Origin: an uncultured Clostridium sp.
GTDB lineage: Bacteria > Bacillota > Clostridia > Peptostreptococcales > Peptostreptococcaceae
Reading direction: 5' to 3'
Assembly (NCBI GenBank): GCA_900550335.1
Contig: URRU01000005.1
Location: forward strand, 1-25,560
Length of the DNA stretch: 25,560 nt
Positions 404 to 24,200 of this stretch are shown here, piece by piece (the stretch's first letter is position 1; the number at the start of each line of letters is the position of its first letter). The notes beneath the pieces were generated by a model. The model searched no databases. It saw only the letters and a program-made list of their open reading frames with translations, and had not been told where the DNA came from. Made by a program: the position numbers and the translations under genes.

Positions 404-463
404 TGGAATGTGTGGGAATCGAACCCACTACATTAGTATCTTTCCTTTTTTAAAGAACATTCC
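404..463 (-). ncRNA. Miniature tRNA-like element (about 60 nt)
   Basis: A perfect 7-bp acceptor stem (GGAATGT with ACATTCC) and a perfect T-arm (GTGGG, loop TTCGATT, CCCAC) are present, followed by a discriminator A. Only 28 nt lie between the acceptor strand and the T-arm, where a normal tRNA has about 42. Those 28 nt can form one 5-bp hairpin (TCTTT/AAAGA) and a 3-bp hairpin (TAC/GTA), so either the D-arm or the anticodon arm is missing and no anticodon can be assigned. It lies just upstream of the primase gene and just after a 10-bp hairpin (TATCCTATAG/CTATAGGATA). It could be a decayed tRNA, a processing signal or a tRNA mimic. CCA is not encoded. Confidence 0.6.
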
Positions 464-1589: not shown

Positions 1590-2738
1590 CTAACTAGATT
1601 TTTTTTTCGCAGGAGTTTCATCACTAGACTCCAACCATTGTTCTAATGTCTTTCTCTCATTTTCAGACCAATTTATAATTAGTCTTTGTTTCCAATCCAT
1701 AAAGTGATTATACTTAAGAGTATGACCAGCTTGAACCATACGAGTAGATATTACCTTACGTAAATTTGTTTCTTTAGCAAATCTACGTAAAGTATTTATA
1801 TAATCTACTACTTCAGAATCATACTGACTTTCATACTTAGCAGAATACGTAACTTCTACAATACCGCCAATAAAACGGTCTATAGTAGACGCATCTAATT
1901 GGTTATTTGCCACATATTGACGATCACACCCAAACCCAAATGTATTACTTGTGGCAATAATAATACAGTTCGGATGTCGATGAACTAAGCCCGTAGTAGT
2001 CTCAATTTCATCATTTGCTAACGCTGCATTAAGAATTTGCGCAACTGCTGGATCTAATGCCGTTATCTCGTCAATCAATATAATAGATGGTTTCGCATAA
2101 TACTCTCCAAATCGAGTAGATTCACGCGTCGGATACTTATAACCAATAAACTCGGTAGCTGATGTCCCTATACCACAGCTAATACATAGATATGGAATTT
2201 CCATCTCTTCTGCTATATTTCTAGCCATAGTACTCTTACCGCAACCGGCAGGACCAACCATCCATATATTCTTTATGCCAGCTTTGACAGTTCTACGTAA
2301 CTTCTCTTCTGGCTCTAGGTCAGTAAAATTGAATCCTAACCTTTTACTTTCCTCTAGATACTTTAGTCTTTCTGCTTCTTTTAGGTCTCTTTCATAAGTA
2401 TCTAATAAATTATTTATTTCTTGTTCTTTAAGTTTCTTATTTAAACTATTAATAATTTTAATACCTGTAAGAGAGGTTTTATATTCATTACCAAGATAGT
2501 CGACGAAAGTAAATTTACCATAGGAATCTTTAAGCATATAAAGATCCTTTCGTTGATTCAATCTTTTTTTCTTACCATTTTCTTTAATCGTAGTAGAAAT
2601 GGCAGCATAGATTACATCCCCTTCTTTAAGCTCGTCACGCTTTTTATCTACATTGATATTTTCAATCGTGTAGTTAGGATCTACTGTATCTATGTCTTTA
2701 TTAAAGAAATGTTTGTTTATGAATTTTGATAAACGCAT
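1590..2738 (-). CDS. AAA+ ATPase, MoxR/CobS-like
   Basis: About 382 residues from the start chosen here. Walker A GPAGCGKST, Walker B IILIDEI, a sensor 1 region ending IIIATSN, and a downstream arginine in DRF (arginine-finger candidate) are all visible and correctly spaced, as in MoxR/CobS (AAA_5) ATPases. An upstream ATG at 2786 is in frame but lies inside a terminator-like hairpin. The ATG at 2738 is preceded by the AT-rich leader AATCAATTTAAA that other genes here share, so 2738 is preferred. The C-terminus is Lys/Ser-rich. Neighbours are SSB upstream and a VWA-like protein downstream; a remodelling or chelatase-like motor is inferred, with the substrate unknown. Confidence 0.75.
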   Translation of the reverse strand: MRLSKFINKHFFNKDIDTVDPNYTIENINVDKKRDELKEGDVIYAAISTTIKENGKKKRLNQRKDLYMLKDSYGKFTFVDYLGNEYKTSLTGIKIINSLNKKLKEQEINNLLDTYERDLKEAERLKYLEESKRLGFNFTDLEPEEKLRRTVKAGIKNIWMVGPAGCGKSTMARNIAEEMEIPYLCISCGIGTSATEFIGYKYPTRESTRFGEYYAKPSIILIDEITALDPAVAQILNAALANDEIETTTGLVHRHPNCIIIATSNTFGFGCDRQYVANNQLDASTIDRFIGGIVEVTYSAKYESQYDSEVVDYINTLRRFAKETNLRKVISTRMVQAGHTLKYNHFMDWKQRLIINWSENERKTLEQWLESSDETPAKKKSS

Positions 2739-2762
2739 TTTAAATTGATTTTTAATTAGACA

Positions 2763-2808
2763 TAAAATAAACGAGAGTGCTTTCATTAGACTCTACTCAC
2801 ACTCTCGT
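2763..2808 (-). terminator. Intrinsic terminator after the SSB gene
   Basis: A 9-bp stem ACGAGAGTG/CACTCTCGT (2800-2808 with 2771-2779) is followed on the minus strand by TTTATTTT. A second small hairpin, GCCTA/TAGGC, lies just before it at 2821-2833. It probably ends the helicase-Sak4-SSB transcript, or attenuates reading into the AAA+ gene. It also contains the ATG at 2786, which argues against that ATG being the start of the AAA+ gene. Confidence 0.65.
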
Positions 2809-17482: not shown

Positions 17483-17668
17483 TTATACCTCCTTTTTAAA
17501 GAATTTGTCTGCAACAATTTTAGCATCAGATAATGATAAATTATACTGATCTTTTACTCTTGAAAGAAAATCCATTTTAGATGTAGACTTTTCTGCAAGT
17601 TTTTCGATTTCTTGTTTTACTCCTGGATCATTAAACTTAACCCAAGGAATGATTTCAATTTTATTCAT
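17483..17668 (-). CDS. Small helical protein, faint L7/L12 C-domain resemblance
   Basis: 61 residues, predicted all-helical after a short N-terminal strand (NKIEIIPWVKF). The segment KMDFLSRVKDQYNLSLSDAK resembles the helix-turn-helix of the ribosomal L7/L12 C-terminal domain (KIxVIKxVRxxTGLGLKEAK), but the last strand is missing. Its ATG overlaps the stop of the gene upstream by 4 nt (ATGA). The resemblance is weak and may be coincidental. Confidence 0.55.
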   Translation of the reverse strand: MNKIEIIPWVKFNDPGVKQEIEKLAEKSTSKMDFLSRVKDQYNLSLSDAKIVADKFFKKEV

Positions 17669-18775: not shown

Positions 18776-18915
18776 CAGCTTTCTACGACATTAGCTTAGC
18801 CGTTTTGAACTTACGCCGCAATACGGCTATAGTTCATAATATAACTTGTATTGCCAGTTATCTGCTTATTGACCTATTCTACTTCACACTGTCGCTGTCA
18901 AATTCATTCAGCCCC
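18776..18915 (-). ncRNA. ssrA: tmRNA, coding piece of a circularly permuted gene
   Basis: It starts with GGGGCTG at 18915-18909, which pairs over all 7 bp with CAGCTCC of the acceptor piece (19029-19023), with the G.T wobble at pair 3 that marks alanine-accepting tmRNAs. GAATTTGACAG follows as the D-loop region. Three P2 helix arms, CGAC (18894-18891), GTAGA (18882-18878) and GGTCAAT (18874-18868), pair in nested order with arms in the acceptor piece. A tag frame and a stem AGCCGT/ACGGCT come next, with the tag stop codon in the loop, as in helix 5 of standard tmRNA. There is too little room for a standard PK1. The 3' end is uncertain. Confidence 0.75.
18811..18855 (-). other. tmRNA tag reading frame (14 codons plus TAA)
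   Basis: Reading from GGC at 18855 to TAA at 18811 gives GNTSYIMNYSRIAA, then stop. The Ala-Ala end preceded by a hydrophobic residue is the usual degradation signal recognised by ClpXP-type proteases, and 14 residues is a normal tag length (known permuted tmRNAs have similar lengths). The stop sits in the loop of the AGCCGT/ACGGCT stem. The resume codon is inferred, so the first residues are less certain than the last. Confidence 0.55.
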
Positions 18916-19021
18916 CAGTAGTAAGTAGATATTTACATCTAACCTACCCACTATGCATTTCCTATCATTTTACTTCGAGGGAGATGCTAGCAATAGAAGT
19001 CACCTTAGACGTCATAGTGAG
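18916..19021 (-). ncRNA. Intervening segment of the permuted tmRNA, with a repeated hairpin
   Basis: This spacer of about 106 nt joins the acceptor 3' end to the coding 5' end and would be cut out during maturation. It contains a 9-bp hairpin at 18920-18952 (AGTGGGTAG with CTACTTACT). The sequence 18919-18942 is identical over 24 nt to 10275-10298 upstream of tRNA-Leu. There the stem's other arm differs by A-to-G and T-to-G changes that alter pairing with T only mildly, so the hairpin shape is preserved. Confidence 0.55.
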
Positions 19022-19100
19022 TGGAGCTGGAGGGGATCAAACCCTCGTCCATACGACTGATTCATAGACCTAACAGTCAATTTCTTTAATTTCTTTAAAA
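19022..19100 (-). ncRNA. ssrA: tmRNA, acceptor piece of a circularly permuted gene
   Basis: On the minus strand it reads P2 arms ATTGACT (19081-19075), TCTAT (19068-19064), GTCG (19057-19054), then GGACGAGGG leading into the T-arm GAGGG-TTTGATC-CCCTC (19046-19030) and the acceptor strand CAGCTCC (19029-19023) with discriminator A. GGAC-x-GGG before the T-loop is a hallmark of the tmRNA 3' end. CCA is not encoded. This piece precedes the coding piece in transcription order, the reverse of an ordinary ssrA gene, so the mature RNA would be two-piece. The 5' boundary is approximate. Confidence 0.75.
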
Positions 19101-19299
19101 AACTACTATCCTATTTATTCGTATCTCTTATTCATAGGCAACCCTTTTCCTTCATCTTAGACCAATATTAGATACTGGTTGACCGTTGTATAGTCCATTG
19201 TACTCTTGCTTAGTAGCTTAGTTGTTACTAAGCTTCCATTAGGGATTTGGTTGATAATAGTAGTTCTGGGTTGACTGCACCATACTAACTTGTTTAGGG
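19101..19299 (-). ncRNA. Structured stretch upstream of the tmRNA acceptor piece
   Basis: No gene. On the minus strand there is an 8-bp hairpin AGCTTAGT/ACTAAGCT at 19215-19234, and another with arms ACCAGTAT/ATATTGGT and a 3-nt loop near 19157-19175. They could be pseudoknot or stem elements of a longer acceptor RNA or simply leader structure. A 14-codon frame (MVQSTQNYYYQPNP) occurs here but has no further support. Confidence 0.35.
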
Positions 19300-20474: not shown

Positions 20475-20624
20475 ACATGGTTTTAACGTCCGCACGATCA
20501 TATATACCATTTATTCTATCAATCCCGTTTTTTACAGTTGCGCAATTAACCTGTATAAATGAGGATAAACGATAACCTTGCTGTATATACTTACGCCCCA
20601 CATGCTTGTCATTTTCTGAGGACG
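20475..20624 (-). ncRNA. Hatchet self-cleaving ribozyme 1 (expanded)
   Basis: On the minus strand CTCAGAAAATGACAA is followed by GCATG and the core TGGGGCGTAAG, and later by GATCGTGCGGACGTTAAAAC and CATGT. This reproduces the two conserved strands of the hatchet ribozyme as I remember it (CTCAGAAAATGACAA, GTGGGGCGTAAG, GATCGTGCAGACGTTAAAATCA). Helix P2 is GCATG/CATGT and P3 is GTATATAC/GTATATA. About 75 nt are inserted at the end of P3. Hatchet cleaves at its own 5' boundary. It sits between the genes at 20695 and 20284. A 60-codon frame across it is spurious. Confidence 0.85.
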
Positions 20625-22490: not shown

Positions 22491-22581
22491 TCCTGATTTT
22501 AACGTCTGCACTAATACTCGTGACACCACTACTATAAACACGAGATATAAGCCCCACAGGATTGTTAAGGATTCTCACCTT
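22491..22581 (-). ncRNA. Hatchet self-cleaving ribozyme 2
   Basis: P1 is AAGG-TGAGAAT-CCTT (22581-22567), then P2 5' strand TCCTG, the core TGTGGGGCTTATAT, P3 CTCGTG/CACGAG (22544-22539 with 22522-22517), the core TATTAGTGCAGACGTTAAAA and P2 3' strand CAGGA (22495-22491). All conserved segments of the hatchet consensus appear in order. Compared with ribozyme 3 all three helices differ in sequence but keep pairing, which is direct covariation evidence for the fold. Confidence 0.9.
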
Positions 22582-22685
22582 AAAGATACCTAGCTACAGG
22601 TCAGCTAGGATTTTTTGTATTACGCTACCCAGTCTTACGACGACTTGACTTGTTCATATCCCGCAATACCGCAAATACGAACTAT
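22582..22685. other. Linker between two tandem hatchet ribozymes, with hairpins
   Basis: About 104 nt. It contains a 7-bp hairpin CCTAGCT/AGCTAGG at 22589-22609 that on the plus strand is followed by A and six T (22610-22617), so it resembles an intrinsic terminator for plus-strand transcription. The rest can fold with GTATT/AATAC arms. If both ribozymes cleave at their 5' edges, a defined RNA of roughly 210 nt would be released, made of ribozyme 3 plus this linker. Confidence 0.45.
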
Positions 22686-22791
22686 CTTTGATTTCATCTG
22701 CACTAATATTAGATTATATAATAACATTTGCAACTATTATCATACATTGTCTAAATATAAGCCCCACAAAGTTGATACTGATTCTCACAGT
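22686..22791 (-). ncRNA. Hatchet self-cleaving ribozyme 3
   Basis: P1 is ACTG-TGAGAAT-CAGT (22791-22777), P2 5' strand CTTTG, core TGGGGCTTATAT, P3 TTAGA/TCTAA (22754-22750 with 22713-22709), core TATTAGTGCAGATG then AAATCA, and P2 3' strand CAAAG (22690-22686). The core differs from copy 2 only by GATG for GACGTT, which may weaken activity. It lies directly after the gene at 22824-23270 on the transcript. Confidence 0.85.
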
Positions 22792-22823
22792 ATAGATGCA
22801 GTAATATTTACTGCATTAACTTA

Positions 22824-23270
22824 TTAATAAAACACTGCTGTAGATACAATTACATTGTAAGGTTCTAATTTTTTAGTAACTTCATCTACTTCCGTTTGTA
22901 GAATAATATTGGGTAGTATACTATATTTTCCTATGCAACTATCTACATATTCTTTAGTTTGATTAAGACTAAAGTTGAATTGTTCTTTTAGTATTTTTAT
23001 TATTTCTATTTTAGCCTTAGTGCTAGTTTTTTCAGGTATAAACATACTCATTCTTACTAAGTTTGTTTCATTCTCCGAGTCTTCCTTACGCTCTAATTCA
23101 GGTATATTTGTACAAGGAATAGGTGTTTCTATAAGAATAGATAGTATGTTATCAAACTGTTCTTTTGAACATACTTTAGATGTTGCATCTATTAAACTAC
23201 CTATAGATAATTTCTCATCATCGATGAGCTTATCTATTATATACTGTTGAATACAATCTATTTTCTTCAT
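22824..23270 (-). CDS. Protein with a ribosomal L7/L12 C-terminal-like domain
   Basis: 148 residues. The N-terminal ~65 residues are helical and not recognised. Residues ~75-148 (KAKIEIIKILKEQFNFSLNQ, then TKEYVDSCIGKY, then VDEVTKKLEPYNVIVST) follow the L7/L12 C-terminal domain: KIxVIKxVRxxTGLGLKEAKxLV, then an ALKKxLExAGAxVxV end. In ribosomes this domain recruits GTPase translation factors. Phage-borne L12-like proteins have been reported in metagenomic surveys of viral ribosomal proteins. It lacks the usual N-terminal dimer domain. The hatchet pair follows directly. Similarity was judged by pattern only. Confidence 0.5.
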   Translation of the reverse strand: MKKIDCIQQYIIDKLIDDEKLSIGSLIDATSKVCSKEQFDNILSILIETPIPCTNIPELERKEDSENETNLVRMSMFIPEKTSTKAKIEIIKILKEQFNFSLNQTKEYVDSCIGKYSILPNIILQTEVDEVTKKLEPYNVIVSTAVFY

Positions 23271-23509: not shown

Positions 23510-24200
23510 CAATAAAAATAATAGAGTAAGCGCATTAATATAGTTATGGAAAACACCACTATAAGCTATGCTAAGAGCTGTCTGATATAAGACCTCATTT
23601 TCTCTTACTCTATTAAAAAATACTTTAGTTCTAACGCCTCTGCGCCTTCATACTACGTTTCTGGAACGTCGTAACGCCCTAATTAAGGAGATATACATCA
23701 TACACGAGTTTTCATATATCATTGTGTTGATATAATAGTTAGATACTAAAGTATCAACACTTATTGTTCAGTTAGTGTCAGACTGTTAAGCACCTCATTA
23801 AGCCTATCGAGGTATAGCTAATTGTCTTCGCTCTGCTTACTTCGAGCTTGGTTGCTGTCTCTAAAAGATGTGCACCAGTTGGAACCTACAACTGCATCTA
23901 CCACGTGGATTCATAATCGGTCTTTACTTGTGCATAGTAAATAGGATTATGTTTTTCTTGACTCTGCATCTTTATTCCTAACTGTTTGTGCTATAGCAAG
24001 GAATTATTATCCAGGCTTGTCACTGGTTTTCTAGCTGCATTAAGAAGAGAAGTATAATAATATAGTCCTTAGCGCTACCTAAGTCTTTATAAGGGCATAC
24101 CTAACTTATATTATTATATTTTAACGTGGTTAAATTATGTTTCACAACATATGAGGATAATTTGCATTTCATAGAATAATTACTTTGCGAATAAATCTGT
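23510..24200 (-). ncRNA. Candidate large structured non-coding RNA (about 0.7 kb)
   Basis: No credible gene. The 3' end on the minus strand is a domain closed by a perfect 11-bp stem AATAGAGTAAG/CTTACTCTATT (23604-23614 with 23520-23530) followed by ATTTTTATT, like a terminator. Inside the region 23912-23951 is a nested hairpin (CATAATC/GATTATG around TTTACT/AGTAAA). Its loop, ATGCACA, can pair with GTGCA at 23870-23875, just beside a 6-bp T-arm-like hairpin CAGTTG/CAACTG (23876-23894). A loop-loop or pseudoknot contact of this kind is typical of large phage RNAs such as ROOL and GOLLD; identity with either is not established. Confidence 0.5.

Follow-up and report, generated by a model that had tools for sequence, protein, structure and literature searches.

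The DNA stretch analyzed here, 25,560 nucleotides long and termed the window, raises two questions: does it encode a working tmRNA in two pieces, and from which tmRNA genes did such a gene descend? A preliminary description had placed a phage-borne tmRNA gene with circularly permuted order (two pieces), in what would be a new, compact form, at positions 18776 to 19100. By its sequence, the window is a Suoliviridae crAss-like phage, with 88% of 25,000 window bases matching NC_055898 (phage cr115_1; Crassvirales, Suoliviridae, Uncouvirinae) at 97%. The best explanation for the locus is that it is a working, circularly permuted tmRNA gene of this phage, and we consider this very probable.

The structural elements proposed previously are all present (Table 1). 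On the transcribed minus strand, the 3' half lies ahead of the 5' half, which is the permuted order. The two pieces are joined by the 7-bp acceptor pairing of GGGGCTG with CAGCTCC, including a G.T at pair 3, and by three P2 helices (ATTGAC/GTCAAT, TCTAT/GTAGA, and GTCG/CGAC). The tmRNA-type T arm, described previously as having GGAC-x-GGG, reads GGAC-GAGGG-TTTGATC-CCCTC (19050-19030), and the stop codon of the tag frame lies inside the span of a predicted hairpin. Of the proposed extent, the tmRNA gene stands but the start does not, because an adjoining tRNA-like element takes the unit to 18696.

Table 1. Positions of the permuted tmRNA gene and its adjoining element in the window
Feature	Position	Strand	Basis or remark
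tmRNA acceptor piece	19081-19021	-	Helices, T arm, covariation
P2a strand, acceptor piece	19081-19076	-	
P2b strand, acceptor piece	19068-19064	-	
P2c strand, acceptor piece	19057-19054	-	
GGAC, acceptor piece	19050-19047	-	
T stem, acceptor piece	19046-19042 with 19034-19030	-	
3' acceptor strand CAGCTCC	19029-19023	-	
Discriminator A	19022	-	CCA not encoded
Intervening sequence, 105 nt	19020-18916	-	Presumably removed
tmRNA coding piece	18915-18775	-	Helices, covariation
5' acceptor strand GGGGCTG, coding piece	18915-18909	-	
P2c strand, coding piece	18894-18891	-	
P2b strand, coding piece	18882-18878	-	
P2a strand, coding piece	18873-18868	-	
Tag frame GNTSYIMNYSRIAA and stop TAA	GGC at 18855 to TAA at 18811	-	ARAGORN, tag comparison
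Predicted hairpin over tag end and stop codon	18836-18806	-	Folding
Candidate H-type pseudoknot, ACGGC/GTCGT, loop AGCT with AGCT	18803-18777	-	
tRNA-like element adjoining coding piece	18774-18696	-	Role putative
Acceptor of tRNA-like element, AGTAAGG with CCTTACT, plus T arm	18774-18768 with 18702-18696	-	

Both program checks that had been proposed support the permuted form. ARAGORN calls a permuted tmRNA on the minus strand of the window, with the tag GNTSYIMNYSRIAA. The Rfam model tmRNA_permuted (RF04321) matches positions 18811-19081 in permuted order, but barely (47.4 bits versus a gathering score of 47.0). The same model gives 30 matches above 113 bits, and 17 further matches at 47-65 bits, in 120 genomes of one proteobacterial phylum. 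Because the score in the window is marginal, we took the comparison among relatives as decisive. The model of the colinear one-piece tmRNA (RF00023) scores 21.3 bits in the window, where 47 bits are required. The betaproteobacterial two-piece model (RF01850, beta_tmRNA; cut-off 84 bits) reaches 24.3 bits in the window and 49.3 bits in phage cr7_1, and the latter match was set aside when inspection found its support to come mostly from the tRNA domain. ARAGORN applied to 200 dinucleotide-shuffled windows produced no permuted call and one standard-form call. Of 185 viral loci retrieved with short patterns, it called two as permuted, both in crAss-like records, and missed at least three that have the gene (L027, L043, and L056). 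Among the matches listed for loci from another pattern scan, it found no tmRNA.

Fourteen loci were obtained from phage records found by similarity. Both pieces occur in permuted order in 13 of these, and with a broader script in all 14, one of which is cut by the record end. The scored set comprises 33 loci: the window, phage records, contigs from IMG/VR and from MAGs, and records chosen via a neighboring sigma factor gene; L083 (cut), L332, and cr272_1 were left out of the P1 scoring. Ten strand combinations of the P1 acceptor helix are paired at 70 of 70 positions, a value matched by none of 5000 shuffles of the partners (mean 52.8, maximum 65). Pair 3 is G.U in all 33 loci, and this G3.U70 pair is presumably an alanine identity signal. 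The T stem is likewise fully paired (12 combinations, 60/60 positions, 0/5000 shuffles as good). P2c is paired at 40 of 44 positions in 11 combinations (0/2000 shuffles), although a G/C end pair served to anchor its strands and three of its four pairs are therefore informative. P2a (4 combinations, 21/24 paired, 79/2000 shuffles) and P2b (5 combinations, 25/25 paired, 67/2000 shuffles) have few combinations and are each weak alone. A C.A mismatch was read by eye in P1 of cr272_1, which is outside the 33, yet ARAGORN makes a permuted call there. Five loci (L007, L009, L010, L011, and L043) have an 8-nt T loop, TATCGTAT or TCTCGGAT, and a GC-rich T stem, whereas the usual T loop is of the 7-nt TTCGA type.

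The preliminary description would have been abandoned if no covariance model matched in permuted order and if the acceptor or P2 arms failed to covary in homologous phages. The helices between the pieces do covary, and because ARAGORN, RF04321, and this covariation are concordant, both grounds for abandoning it fall away. A chance resemblance, or a decayed relic of a tmRNA gene, would fit the marginal Rfam score of the window and the scores of several relatives that lie under the cut-off. However, the changes in P1 and the T stem are compensatory and no pair is lost in any of their combinations, on which grounds we reject a relic, and the lack of permuted calls in shuffled windows leads us to reject chance. 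This explanation is thus barely conceivable.

Complete tags are found in 26 of 27 loci, and all 26 end in Ala; GNTSYVTDYTRIAA is a typical phage tag. The first tag codon is GGC in 22 of these and GAC in four, with the script having demanded one or the other. When 19 distinct tags are compared without gaps over their final nine codons, the differences at the three codon positions number 447, 382, and 779, and thus are mostly at the third. Nonsynonymous codon differences exceed synonymous ones in this comparison (590 versus 371), in part because ungapped alignment misaligns length variants. A hairpin over the stop codon is predicted in 23 of 23 distinct sequences folded, with a mean z of -2.6; this set excludes L005, L011, L093, and L094, which were not extracted.

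If the gene functions as a tmRNA, host tRNA enzymes would process a single precursor, with RNase P cutting ahead of GGGGCTG and ahead of the tRNA-like element, and with the 3' end being trimmed and CCA being added after CTCCA. The two RNAs expected to remain would be held together through P1 and P2. Host AlaRS would then charge the phage tmRNA, host SmpB would take it to ribosomes stalled during infection, and the Ala-ending tag would mark the unfinished protein for proteolysis. None of eight phage records has an SmpB match. A group of common gut phages would then bring its own ribosome-rescue RNA and, as it lacks SmpB, presumably borrow that of the host.

Phages that lack SmpB might instead produce a decoy, which would compete with host tmRNA or SmpB without rescuing ribosomes. 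A precedent is mentioned in excerpts of PMC11915505, namely a tag-less tmRNA of phage DS6A that inhibits the endogenous tmRNA in E. coli. However, the C-terminal Ala is present in every complete tag of the crAss-like phages, and the stop hairpin in every fold. Because both features are kept, a decoy role is quite unlikely, and a working tmRNA is the preferred reading.

The preliminary description was correct in proposing that PK1 is lacking. In the window, the gap from P2 to the resume codon is only 12 nt, which is too short for PK1. The tag start falls at nt 59-63 in the coding pieces of 27 phage loci, versus 95-97 in eight Bacteroidota one-piece genes, 80-97 in two other phyla, and 86-205 in a third. 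On the 3' side of the stop codon is one candidate H-type pseudoknot, which is nearly invariant and has two compensated changes as read by eye (L097 and L012). A two-piece tmRNA that is very short and has no PK1 could serve as a test bed for what a tmRNA really needs.

The anchor AAAGCTGG, or a close variant, is found in 25 of 28 loci, and an acceptor-like helix and T arm follow it directly in 23 of the 25. In the two loci missed (L027 and L090), a similar tRNA-like element is visible by eye. The 18 distinct acceptor pairs are paired at 113 of 126 positions (shuffle mean 66, maximum 87), a figure that is favored because the strand offset was picked for best pairing. The distance from helix to T arm is tRNA-sized (40-48 nt) in 11 loci, but is 24-27 nt in three, 11-16 nt in eight, and 91 nt in one; D and anticodon arms would not fit in the shortest of these forms. 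Rfam finds a tRNA at the end of the coding piece in L329, L330, L331, and L333 (42-54 bits). We propose that this element is an RNase P signal, with cleavage there defining where the coding piece ends on its 3' side. Degenerate tRNAs at this site would be a natural case in which the sole role of a tRNA may be to mark a cutting site. Elsewhere in the window, a short tRNA match at 404-463 (minus strand) scores 30.5 bits against a cut-off of 29 and has no ARAGORN call.

The origin of the gene was approached by comparing sequence signatures among reference genes whose phyla were assigned from the record titles of the centre genomes. Eight Bacteroidota genes, two of them identical, were picked by their tags, which we take to be Bacteroidales-type. 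The tmRNA stretch of one (L234) has a 95% match to a Bacteroides finegoldii record, and like checks of L237 and L240 gave no match. Three signatures set these genes apart from 60 standard genes of three other phyla: TTTGAC in the 5' tRNA domain (8/8 versus 0/60), GTAGAAAGC near the 3' part (8/8 versus 1/60), and a GGC resume codon (8/8, in genes selected by a tag pattern with a GGN start, versus 2/60). The phage genes carry TTGAC or TTGAT; a count of 27/27 is circular because the extraction script demanded one of the two, and eight loci read by eye without this filter have it in all cases (L083, L329, L330, L331, L333, L334, L336, and L343). GTAGAAAGC is present exactly in 7 of 27 phage loci, and as GTA[AG]AAAGC in 20 of 27. 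CCA is encoded in none of the eight Bacteroidota genes and none of 35 phage loci.

Thus, the phage gene has in common with the Bacteroidota one-piece tmRNA (RF00023; tags GENNYALAA and GETNYALAA) the TTTGAC signature, GTAGAAAGC, the GGC resume codon, the GTTTGGACGAGGG T arm, and an unencoded CCA. It differs in being opened and reordered, in its longer tag and earlier tag start, and in the loss of PK1 and of the long pseudoknot region. In Bacteroidota genes, the P2 3' strand and the T arm come after the GTAGAAAGC block, whereas the coding piece of the phages ends with this block. The circle therefore appears to have been opened just after this block. The opening site and the shared signatures suggest that the gene came from a Bacteroidota one-piece tmRNA through a permutation separate from those of the three known lineages.

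Those lineages are the permuted tmRNAs of alphaproteobacteria, betaproteobacteria, and cyanobacteria (RF04321; RF01849, RF01850, and RF01851), the latter two being compared here through Rfam models alone. In these genes too, the acceptor piece comes first, an intervening sequence precedes the coding piece, P1 and P2 link the two pieces, and the tag ends in Ala. This identical gene order, the match to RF04321, which was made from these lineages, and the beta_tmRNA scores, although below cut-off, could mean that phages acquired the permuted gene ready-made from one of them. However, TCGAC is present in 30 of 30 proteobacterial permuted genes, and CCA is encoded in 23 of these. These reference genes, which we name alphaproteobacterial from their tags, have tags of the ANDN type, whereas the phage tags are of the GN type. 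We reject a simple origin from an alpha-type permuted gene on the basis of these differences. The phage gene is further distinguished from the RF04321 lineages by its GGC or GAC resume codon, its lack of PK1, and its adjoining tRNA-like element. Ready-made acquisition is thus highly improbable.

Another alternative is that the permutation arose in an unsampled Bacteroidota bacterium and was then captured by phages. The Bacteroidota signatures fit this history, and Bacteroidota chromosomes lay outside the direct search. However, an exact 18-mer from the coding piece, which detects close relatives alone, retrieved seven contigs from 84,980 species genomes, four with crAss-like genes and three without. 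We regard a host-born permutation as unlikely.

Instead, it is probable that the phage genes constitute a fourth independent two-piece lineage, which is widespread in Suoliviridae, derived from Bacteroidota, and devoid of PK1. This lineage would often carry an arm-less tRNA-like end signal, and some members would be split by a T-loop group I intron, such that one rescue RNA is produced from three segments encoded separately. If so, one more circular permutation of tmRNA would have taken place in, or close to, viruses of abundant gut bacteria. A separately rearranged and shortened copy of a Bacteroides-type gene would constitute a new branch of a known rescue system.

The permuted gene was found in all 19 Suoliviridae records examined, by ARAGORN, by RF04321, or by the pieces themselves. 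Six of the 19 were chosen via the sigma factor alone (cr1_1, cr55_1, cr118_1, cr130_1, cr272_1, and cr7_1), and the sample excludes cr131_1, cr273_1, cr124_1, and other listed records. RF04321 has no match in crAss001 (Steigviridae) or crAss002 (Intestiviridae), which is weak evidence given that the model also misses 9 of the 19 Suoliviridae records. These two phages are recorded with Bacteroides hosts, and the Suoliviridae records examined name no host. Four crAss-like contigs (L084, L087, L089, and L090) are binned in MAGs titled uncultured bacterium, Mollicutes, Sphaerochaeta, and Erysipelotrichaceae, which is probably mis-binning.

Some of these genes have been annotated before. GenBank records of cr115_1, cr114_1, cr125_1, cr60_1, cr52_1, cr10_1, cr50_1, cr130_1, and cr7_1 include a "transfer-messenger RNA, SsrA" feature whose form is not specified. 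According to excerpts of PMC9004378, the marine phage Melnitz has a two-piece tmRNA, and ARAGORN found 53 two-piece tmRNAs in 18,146 phage genomes, with 50 of the 53 being marine or aquatic. Melnitz and the crAss-like phages have in common a permuted tmRNA in a lytic phage. However, these excerpts trace the Melnitz tmRNA to alphaproteobacteria and link it to a glutamine riboswitch, and the crAss-like gene is set apart from it, by description rather than by sequence comparison, through other hosts and signatures. Excerpts of PMC11915505 count 79 phage tmRNA sequences in RefSeq viruses as of October 2023, which may include crAss-like genes. The term "tmRNA" is absent from the main text of a crAss-like survey (PMC7886860), these genes are not described in excerpts of two papers on crAss phages (PMC6235969 and PMC9805569), and among the matches listed we found no open-licence paper whose title or abstract describes them. 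Given the published two-piece phage tmRNAs and the GenBank features, a permuted phage tmRNA is not in itself new. The lineage, which is Bacteroidota-like, appears to be new, as do the compact form, the adjoining tRNA-like element, and the existence of relatives that are both permuted and intron-bearing.

The T loop of the window gene is uninterrupted, and thus the gene has no group I intron at this site. In contrast, seven relatives have a T-loop insert (L012, L013, L027, L089, L331, L332, and L333). Rfam Intron_gpI matches begin in or at the T loop of L012 (cr4_1), L013 (cr6_1), L027, and L331 (cr1_1), in a scan of all these seven relatives but L089 and L332; splice sites are approximate for L013 and L331. 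L083, whose T arm is cut off, has one Intron_gpI match upstream of the coding piece, and L333 (cr118_1) has no Rfam intron match at its insert. A script located the complementary second T-stem half, joined to a fitting acceptor strand, 757-874 nt downstream in L012, L013, L027, L089, and L333, and the two T-stem halves of L332 (cr55_1) are ~700 nt apart. Excerpts of PMC11915505 (2025) name standard, intron, and permuted forms of tmRNA, in a table of forms without a permuted-plus-intron class. The intron form described there, in which a group I intron interrupts the T loop, has its insertion site in common with the phage relatives, but the interrupted phage gene is permuted. An HNH endonuclease gene lies on the opposite strand within the T-loop insert of L331 (2542-3051, minus strand).

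Among relatives, the intervening sequence between the two pieces is 13 nt long at its shortest and about 1050 nt at its longest, with the insert counted in. In L009 and L010, it contains endonuclease genes on the opposite strand (2218-2799, plus strand, in each). An intact tRNA-His resides in that of cr114_1 (L002 3230-3302, minus strand); excerpts of PMC11915505 report a single similar arrangement, in which a nominally archaeal permuted gene contains a tRNA-Ala.

Elsewhere in the window, the cr115_1 counterpart of a small protein encoded at 17483-17668 (minus strand) is annotated as "ribosomal protein-like". We take this protein, and likewise part of the protein encoded at 22824-23270, to resemble the C-terminal domain of L7/L12.

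We weighed RAGATH-9 as a component of the tmRNA unit and left it out because its distance to the acceptor piece varies. It ends 17-18 nt upstream of this piece in the window, L001, L003, and L007, but the distance is 287 nt in L002 and about 1.0-1.7 kb in L004-L006 and L008-L011. The window also carries three Hatchet ribozymes, RAGATH-7-assoc, RAGATH-7, a weak twister-P1, and RAGATH-6 (just below cut-off); together with RAGATH-9, these RNAs are located at 19099-19278, 20475-20623, 22491-22587, 22686-22797, and 23622-24197, all on the minus strand. Related phages also have RAGATH-9, RAGATH-20, RAGATH-22, and Hatchet RNAs, and these orphan RNA families appear here to be RNAs of crAss-like phages.
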